NCBI GenBank assembly: GCA_903929475.1
Contig: CAIYUV010000052.1
Span: 1-64,000, forward strand
DNA from: an uncultured Spartobacteria bacterium
GTDB lineage: Bacteria > Verrucomicrobiota > Verrucomicrobiia > Chthoniobacterales > Chthoniobacteraceae
Length of the DNA: 64,000 nt
Direction: 5' to 3'
Below the pieces are notes generated by a model, which had not been told where the DNA came from, did no database searches, and was given only the letters and a program-made list of their open reading frames with translations. Within the stretch, counting starts at the first letter, position 1. Each line of letters starts with the position of its first letter. Position numbers and translations under genes: made by a program. Shown piece after piece: positions 52,701-54,628 of this stretch.

Positions 52701-52901
52701 ATGACTGTCGCAACAATCGTCGCCAGCCTGCTGCCGATCATGTGGAGCCATGGCGTCGGCTCCGAGGTGATGAAGCCACTTGCGACGCCGGTCATCGGCG
52801 GAATGTTGAGCAGCCTCATCCACGTTCTTGTCGTTACGCCGGTGATATTCCTATGGCTGCGCCTTCGCGAAATCCCATCATCCCCCGCAGTATCGCGATG
52901 A
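49716..52901 (+). CDS. cusA: CusA/CzcA-family heavy-metal RND transporter
   Basis: The 1,061-residue inner-membrane proton antiporter has the RND plan of 12 membrane helices: the first ([20 protein letters not shown]) is followed by the porter domain [30 protein letters not shown], characteristic of the heavy-metal (HAE1-related HME) subfamily. The helix 4 region has [19 protein letters not shown] with the acidic relay residues. A second half repeats the layout from ~520. The context (CusB-like adaptor with a copper-type metal domain, multicopper oxidase, MbnP-like protein) favours Cu(I)/Ag(I) over Zn/Co. No outer-membrane factor (CusC/TolC-like) lies next to it. It overlaps both neighbours by ATGA. 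Confidence 0.93.
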   Translation: [1061 protein letters not shown]

Positions 52902-54628
52902 AAGCAATTCGAACATTCGTGATGGCAGGCGTGCTTTGCCTGGCGGTTCTCGGCAACGCAGCAACGCTCGAAATTTCCATCCAGCACAAATTCGGCGGCG
53001 AGCTGCTGCTCCTCGATTCGCTGCGTTTTCAAAACTCCGCCGCCGAGACGCTGTCGTTCACGAGGGTGAGCTACCTTCTCAGCGGTTTTGCCGTGGAGCG
53101 CGAAGATGGTGTGTGGGTGGAGATCCCCGATCAATATGCGTGGATGGACGCGGAAAAACGCCGCCTGTCCGAGCGGCTCGAAGGCGTGCCGGAGGGAAAG
53201 TATCGTGCGCTTCGTTTTCACATCGGCCCGGATGCAACAGCAAACTCCGCGAACCCCGCTGGCCTCGCGCCGACCCATCCGCTGAACGCGAATCTCAATG
53301 GTCTGCATTGGACGTGGCAGAGCGGATACATCTTCCTCGCCTTGGAGGGACGCTATCGCGCGACGGCGGGAGCGGAGTTGTCTGGATATTCATATCACTT
53401 CGCGCGCACGCCAAACCGCACGCGCATCAGCCTCGCCGCTCCGCTCGATCTCACGCACGACGCCGGCGTGTTGCTCGATTTTGATCTGGCAGCGTTGCTC
53501 AATGCACCGCGCCCGCTTGCTTTCACACGGGATGGTGCCGCGACACATTCCCGCGAAGGCGATCCAGTCGCTGCTGCACTCGCAGCGAATTTGCCTGGCT
53601 CATTTCGTGTGCGACAGATCACATCGGCGATTCCCGCAATCAGCAAGCCCTCTCCTGTGAAGCCGCTCTACATGCCGGAAAAATTCACGCCCTATCGCTT
53701 CACGATGAGCGGCAGTTTTCCCATTCCCGATCTTCCGCGCGACAACCCTCTCATCGAGGAGCGCGTGACGCTCGGTAAAAAGTTGTTCAACGAAACCGCA
53801 CTATCGCGCGACGGCTCTCTTTCGTGCTCGTCGTGTCATGTCGCCAACTTCGCCCACACCGATCCGCGCCGCTTCAGCAAGGGCGTGGACGGACAGGCTG
53901 GGACGCGCAACTCGATGCCGCTCTTCAATCTCGCGTGGAAGACGAGTTTCTTTTGGGACGGACGCGCCCCATCGCTCCGCGCACAGGCATTGATGCCGAT
54001 TCAGGATCACACCGAGATGGATGAGAAACTCGACCGTGTGACAGCGAAGCTCGCAGCATACGCCGAGTATCCACCGTTGTTCCGCGCCGCTTTCGGAGCG
54101 CCGGAAATCACCACCGAAAAAATCGGGCTGGCGATCGAAAACTTTGTCCTGACTCTCACCGCATTCGACTCAAAATTCGACCGTGCGATGCTCGGTAAAG
54201 CCACACTCACTCCCGATGAGCAGCGCGGCTTCGAGTTGTTCATGACGGAATACGATCCACGCACGGGCCAGCAGGGGGCCGATTGCTTTCACTGCCACGG
54301 CGGCCCGCTCTTCAGCGATCATCAATTTCATAACAACGGCCTCGCCCCTAACCCCGCCGACACAGGTCGCTTCATTGTGACAAAGAACGAAGCGGATCGC
54401 GGAAAATTCGCCACGCCCAGCCTCCGCAACGTCGCCCGCACCGCGCCCTATATGCACGATGGTCGCTTTGCTACACTCGAAGAAGTCGTGGCCCACTACA
54501 CCACCGGCCTCCAGCGCACTCTCACGCTCGATCCCAACCTCGCCAAGCATCCCGACGGCGGTGTGCCGCTGAGTGAAAAGGATCGCCGAGCCCTCGTCGC
54601 ATTCCTTAAAACACTTAGCGACGAGTGA
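52898..54628 (+). CDS. Fusion of MbnP-like copper protein and MbnH/MauG-like dihaem peroxidase
   Basis: The 576-residue protein has a signal peptide (ending LGNAA, about residue 22). Residues about 24-245 resemble MbnP: IQHKFGGELLLLDSL with His30, SFTRVSYLLSGFAVEREDG, then LNGLHWTWQSGYIFLALEG with Trp138 and Trp140. Residues about 255-576 are a MauG/MbnH-type c-type dihaem protein with haem motifs CSSCH (310-314) and CFHCH (463-467), FFWDGRAPSLRAQALMP and PSLRNVARTAPYMHDGR. In methanotrophs, MbnH oxidises a tryptophan of MbnP to kynurenine and this creates a copper site. Here both are one chain, directly after CusA (ATGA overlap). Self-modification is inferred; which Trp would be used is unknown. 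Confidence 0.82.
   Translation: MKAIRTFVMAGVLCLAVLGNAATLEISIQHKFGGELLLLDSLRFQNSAAETLSFTRVSYLLSGFAVEREDGVWVEIPDQYAWMDAEKRRLSERLEGVPEGKYRALRFHIGPDATANSANPAGLAPTHPLNANLNGLHWTWQSGYIFLALEGRYRATAGAELSGYSYHFARTPNRTRISLAAPLDLTHDAGVLLDFDLAALLNAPRPLAFTRDGAATHSREGDPVAAALAANLPGSFRVRQITSAIPAISKPSPVKPLYMPEKFTPYRFTMSGSFPIPDLPRDNPLIEERVTLGKKLFNETALSRDGSLSCSSCHVANFAHTDPRRFSKGVDGQAGTRNSMPLFNLAWKTSFFWDGRAPSLRAQALMPIQDHTEMDEKLDRVTAKLAAYAEYPPLFRAAFGAPEITTEKIGLAIENFVLTLTAFDSKFDRAMLGKATLTPDEQRGFELFMTEYDPRTGQQGADCFHCHGGPLFSDHQFHNNGLAPNPADTGRFIVTKNEADRGKFATPSLRNVARTAPYMHDGRFATLEEVVAHYTTGLQRTLTLDPNLAKHPDGGVPLSEKDRRALVAFLKTLSDE

Follow-up and report, generated by a model that had tools for sequence, protein, structure and literature searches.

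The stretch of DNA analysed here (hereafter the window) comprises 64,000 nucleotides of contig CAIYUV010000052.1 from an uncultured Spartobacteria bacterium, and carries a gene that joins MbnP and MbnH in one protein, next to genes for a copper pump and a multicopper oxidase. MbnP and MbnH are usually encoded by two adjoining genes, and the di-haem MbnH is thought to finish the copper site of MbnP. The genes and features of the locus are as follows.

42963..48458, + strand: secreted protein of 1831 aa with a YHYH domain, Ig/fn3 modules and a C-terminal CueO-like multicopper oxidase (Pfam)
48520..49719, + strand: cusB adaptor with an N-terminal heavy-metal-binding (HMBD) domain (Pfam)
49716..52901, + strand: cusA, RND copper/silver pump (TIGR00914, 1051 bits against a cut-off of 701; CusA structures, E 1e-239)
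52898..54628, + strand: MbnP-MbnH fusion gene, 576 aa, its ATG overlapping the cusA stop as ATGA
52898..52963, + strand: putative Sec signal peptide, residues 1-22 (MKAIRTFVMAGVLCLAVLGNAA), assigned by eye from its n/h/c-region pattern
52964..53641, + strand: MbnP domain, residues 23-248 (PF20243 and 7l6g fold match)
53306..53317, + strand: WxW motif, H137-W138-T139-W140, with W138 at the position of the MbnP kynurenine tryptophan
53396..53398, + strand: H167, a candidate for copper binding; proteobacterial MbnP has the His of HLGST here
53546..53548, + strand: H217, a candidate for copper binding; proteobacterial MbnP has the Met of CMS here
53642..53689, + strand: interdomain linker, residues ~249-264, poorly conserved and with a dip in pLDDT
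53690..54625, + strand: MbnH/MauG di-haem domain, residues 265-576 (PF03150 and 6e1c fold match)
53825..53839, + strand: CxxCH of haem 1, C310-H314, invariant in fusions
53954..53956, + strand: W353, where MauG has the inter-haem Trp93 (alignment)
54284..54298, + strand: CxxCH of haem 2, C463-H467, invariant in fusions
54497..54499, + strand: Y534, at the haem-ligand position of MauG Tyr294 (alignment)

A Pfam search of the 576-aa reading frame places both the MbnP and the CCP_MauG domain in one chain. Residues 23-203 match PF20243 (MbnP; 1.7e-30, 106.8 bits against a gathering cut-off of 27) and residues 288-435 match PF03150 (CCP_MauG; 5.9e-52, 176.7 bits against a cut-off of 25.6). The best NCBIfam match is TIGR04039 (MbnH; residues 280-576, 8.5e-66), which at 222 bits lies under the 363-bit equivalog cut-off, as does the separate di-haem protein encoded beside an MbnP gene in the Sumerlaeota (231 bits). 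TIGR04052 (MbnP_like_WxW), the equivalog for the four-Cys type, scores 29.3 bits, under its curated cut-off of 140, and residues 23-248 of the fusion hold no Cys, unlike the four-Cys MbnPs. The best PDB sequence match of the fusion is MbnH (6e1c, 1.1e-43); the MbnP crystal structure gave no match in a simple phmmer search but was found by a profile search. The frame at 52898-54628 is a real MbnP-MbnH fusion: an assembly error or a missed stop is ruled out by the recurrence of the same two-domain frame, with 45-92% identity, across some 35 aligned loci and by its presence in single-contig genomes. The source genome itself contains a second copy of the fusion, a paralogue that is 47% identical.

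An AlphaFold2 model of the window protein, built on an alignment of 34 fusions (pLDDT 85.6, pTM 0.81), was compared with known structures by VIA-align. MbnH (6e1c) ranks first (Z 29.1, 298 residues) and MbnP (7l6g) aligns with the N-terminal half (Z 18.5, 213 residues, rmsd 3.6, 19% identity); a second model, of the paralogue, yields Z 30.2 for MbnH and 17.5 for MbnP, and pTM is above 0.8 in both cases. The earlier note had identified MbnP and MbnH, fused, had proposed residues 24-245 and 255-576 for comparison with each, and had pointed to two CxxCH motifs in the chain. Profiles and fold agree with these identities for both halves, the aligned ranges of the model being residues 21-248 for MbnP and 265-576 for MbnH, and the two motifs read C310SSCH314 and C463FHCH467. 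Many peroxidase chains align from model residues 117-118 and then jump to the di-haem domain, and in the paralogue model the peroxidase alignments start mostly at residues 115-118. Because these alignments start in the H-W-x-W stretch (H137/W138), the WxW backbone appears to sit on the di-haem domain, where free peroxidases have their N-terminus, a placement read from alignment ranges rather than coordinates, in two models that share alignment rows.

The tryptophans 138 and 140, which had been singled out beforehand as candidates for oxidation, are borne out by conservation: among 35 aligned full-length fusions, W138 is present in every one (35/35), W140 in 34 (the sole exception reads HWSP) and H137 in 97%. 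Among Bacteroidota MbnPs encoded on their own, the second W of the motif is missing from about a quarter and the first from 13%, so the trait is not essential to the MbnP fold. In the di-haem half, C310/C313/H314, W353, Q363, E373, C463/C466/H467 and Y534 are invariant across 55 fused sequences. The spacing of W353-Q363-P367-E373 is that of W93-Q103-P107-E113 in MauG (residue numbers taken in part from PDB titles), and Tyr occupies the Y534 position in all 55 fused and all 95 separate sequences (150 compared), as well as in a Methylobacterium MauG. Trp93 of MauG has a role in the bis-Fe(IV) state of that enzyme (PMC6405878). The alignments indicate that the residues for both a Tyr-ligated six-coordinate haem and a Trp between the haems have been kept in the fusions. 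An ordinary cytochrome c peroxidase that removes H2O2, with the MbnP half serving as a copper sensor or tether and with no oxidation of Trp, would be compatible with the strong matches of the di-haem domain to bCcP structures (MacA, Z 27), with the coincidence of peroxide and copper stress and with the position of the gene after a copper pump. Such a function nevertheless seems rather improbable, given that every fused sequence has Tyr, and not Met, where MauG has Tyr294, that MbnH is the top match by both fold and sequence, and that W138 is invariant beside the di-haem domain.

The residues available for copper binding differ from those of the MbnPs compared. H167 occurs in 100% of the fusions and in 96% of the separate MbnPs, and H217 in 100% of the fusions. 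Two proteobacterial MbnPs (L146 and L147) have a conserved Met two residues before the first W and another in CMS; these positions correspond to L136 and H217 in the fusions, neither of which is Met. A PNAS study of MbnP from 2021 is reported to have found Cu(I) coordinated, close to Kyn, by a His, a Met and solvent. If the ligand Met is at either of the two positions, a His/His/Kyn site is likely, because the Met positions have changed and the His is conserved. Hence the invariant His (H167) is retained, the His/Met ligand set of Methylosinus MbnP probably is not, and the alignment suggests that the copper site of the fusion is a His/His/Kyn site like those of MopE and CorA. The site of MopE consists of His132, His203 and Kyn130 (PMC3423442), and both MopE (PMC3423442) and CorA (PMC3912023) have kynurenine-copper sites with two His and genes that are co-transcribed with di-haem peroxidases.

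All the sequence features expected for conversion of W138 to kynurenine are thus conserved, and the conversion itself is predicted. The product is best read as a Cu(I) protein, periplasmic or secreted, that modifies itself, and we hold it reasonably probable that the fusion is an exported, self-contained MbnP/MbnH pair in which kynurenine made in cis completes a Cu(I) site. Once the chain is exported and loaded with haem, reaction with peroxide (or with O2 and electrons) would give a high-valent di-haem centre via W353, and this centre would oxidise W138 of its own chain to kynurenine. Kyn138, H167 and H217 would then complete the Cu(I) site, with H137 possibly assisting.

Pfam and the ATGA overlap with cusA corroborate the CusBA pump and multicopper oxidase reported earlier beside the fusion. 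When aligned with E. coli CusA, the window CusA has Met at all three pore-Met positions (presumably M573, M623 and M672 in E. coli), so that, as far as its sequence tells, the pump has the marks of a genuine Cu(I)/Ag(I) CusA. The proposal in the earlier note that copper delivery is tied to efflux does not extend beyond a few genomes: CusBA lies upstream of the fusion only in the window and in two close relatives (G007, 92% identical, and G009), so efflux coupling is not the general function. Other fusion loci adjoin YHYH proteins, two-component regulators (present near several of them) or galactose-oxidase-like giants. A YHYH-domain gene is found within about 4 kb of the fusion in some 20 loci, mostly directly upstream, and in the window the YHYH domain forms the N-terminal part of the 1831-aa protein that ends in the multicopper oxidase. 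A literature search found no link between the YHYH domain and copper; still, it may be copper-related, since it is the commonest neighbour of the fusion and is joined to a multicopper oxidase in the window. In one locus (L166:9278-12313, - strand) a YHYH domain is fused to a sulfatase domain and adjoins the MbnP-MbnH fusion, and in another (L154:6341-8044, - strand) the fusion is followed by cytochrome c oxidase subunit I (COX1), another copper enzyme. Downstream of the window fusion, at 54625-55608, lies a gene that begins with a GTG overlapping the fusion stop (GTGA) and encodes a prenyltransferase-like alpha-alpha toroid protein, which is retained in the closest relative (G007, 91%).

In eight loci, including that of the second copy in the source genome, the fusion overlaps or abuts a gene for a secreted galactose-oxidase-like protein (kelch, GO-like E-set); the fusions with such neighbours belong to the paralogue clade that contains this second copy. 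The proteins are giants of about 1570-2650 aa where the full length is readable, their segments HDMFC, WY, NYHS and THS supply the Cys, Tyr, Tyr-His and His that a copper-radical site calls for, and beyond these come PKD or Ig domains and a di-haem part resembling CCP_MauG. Giants directly after the fusion are found at L148:1241-8266 (- strand, contig C204), L165:1-7665, L155:3443-8140, L017:9599-17554 and L024:8946-16076. Judged by predicted domains, the partner set of the fusion is copper-related and efflux is a local variation. Where the fusion would be made alongside a copper pump and a multicopper oxidase, as in the window, its probable task is to buffer copper in the periplasm or outside the cell, or to pass it on; for most relatives, the YHYH or copper-oxidase partners suggest that a role as store or donor for secreted copper enzymes would be more general than efflux. 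A related explanation makes the fusion a maturation factor that loads copper onto secreted oxidases (the multicopper oxidase of the window or the galactose-oxidase-like giant) and has no part in efflux. The single run formed in the window by the fusion and the YHYH-multicopper oxidase, together with the eight loci in which the neighbouring giant keeps the Cys, Tyr, Tyr-His and His, speaks for it, but many YHYH-linked loci have no identified copper-enzyme partner, and we regard it as somewhat unlikely; it overlaps the reading preferred above and differs from it only in where the copper goes. Broader still, and on the whole unlikely, is a phylum-wide class of proteins that would make their own kynurenine in cis, bind copper in a His/His/Kyn site and deliver it to secreted copper oxidases, among them the giants of galactose-oxidase type fused to a di-haem domain.

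The fusion is not a peculiarity of one genome, since the architecture is phylum-wide. The genome scan yielded 80 loci, with more from relatives, of which about 35 with the full two-domain frame were aligned. Among 388 Verrucomicrobiota genomes, 22 contain PF20243 matches, and all 26 non-fragment genes are fused, one further gene being a fragment. Two apparently unfused cases in this phylum were rejected: in G161 a frameshift interrupts what is otherwise a fusion (counted among the 26), and G174 is the fragment, without MbnH. Of 296 Bacteroidota genomes, 78 carry PF20243 in about 100 genes, none of them fused as judged by frame length, with the two longest frames inspected, and mbnP and mbnH adjoin; these two frames (G674, 517 aa, and G662, 402 aa) were rejected as fusions on finding MbnH in a separate frame. 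A second phylum sample mostly repeats the Bacteroidota sample and was left out of the counts. Several Bacteroidota-type loci (L025, L026, L030, L034, L037, L041, L051 and others) have two MbnH-like genes close together by the MbnP gene. Three PF20243 matches, all in separate genes, were obtained in 40 Sumerlaeota genomes. In a tree of the di-haem domains the fusions group together and, at an open fork, only the Sumerlaeota pairs branch within or next to them; a further sequence among the fusions looks separate just because the end of its contig truncates what is in fact a fusion. The simplest reading is a single fusion event. A plasmid search gave 362 matching records, none of them spanning 80% of the query.

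The closest sequences to the fusions are the mbnP-mbnH pairs of the Sumerlaeota and Bacteroidota, which adjoin in the same order but encode two proteins; those of the Sumerlaeota, whose di-haem domains group with the fusions, lie in a YHYH-mbnP-mbnH operon. This arrangement bears on the remaining possibility that the targets of the di-haem half are other proteins, modified in trans, such as the neighbouring YHYH protein or giant, and not its own MbnP half. The substrate of MauG is a separate protein, and redox partners are plausible because the giants carry a di-haem domain of their own. The encoding of the closest separate relatives as an MbnP-MbnH pair, the short linker in every fusion and the placement of WxW on the di-haem domain in the models argue against it, and make action in trans appear highly improbable. 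MauG resembles the fusion in being a di-haem enzyme that oxidises protein Trp, and its W93, Q103, P107, E113 and Tyr294 positions are kept; it differs in modifying methylamine dehydrogenase, in trans, to form TTQ.

With the MbnP (7l6g) and MbnH (6e1c) of Methylosinus trichosporium the fusion shares both folds, WxW, the His equivalent to H167, two c-haems, the Tyr at the MauG ligand position, the bridging Trp and the order of MbnP followed by MbnH. It differs from that pair in being one chain and in having no four-Cys motif, from the two proteobacterial MbnPs compared in having Leu and His at the conserved Met positions, and from the Methylosinus system in that no methanobactin genes were seen near the fusion. 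MopE/SACCP and CorA/CorB of methanotrophs have a Kyn Cu(I) site with two His and a gene by that of a di-haem peroxidase, and the fusion has two invariant His and a W that may form a comparable site; unlike the fusion, MopE and CorA are encoded by separate genes. MbnP is without marked sequence similarity to MopE or CorA (PMC3621798), and the same source makes no mention of an MbnP-MbnH fusion; the primary MbnP/MbnH papers lay outside the reach of our search and may mention one. The components and the chemistry are already known. In the literature within reach we met no description of the one-chain form, of its fixation throughout a phylum or of the altered set of ligands.

With two proteins it is difficult to study how MbnH encounters MbnP and oxidises a single selected Trp. 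In a natural single chain both stoichiometry and geometry are fixed, so that one protein, one addition of peroxide and one mass spectrum would test the formation of kynurenine in cis. Candidate kynurenine copper sites are hereby extended from methanotrophs to a phylum in which no link to methanobactin was seen, and the natural change of ligands, with the Met positions replaced and the His conserved, offers a way to ask what the ligand set does.
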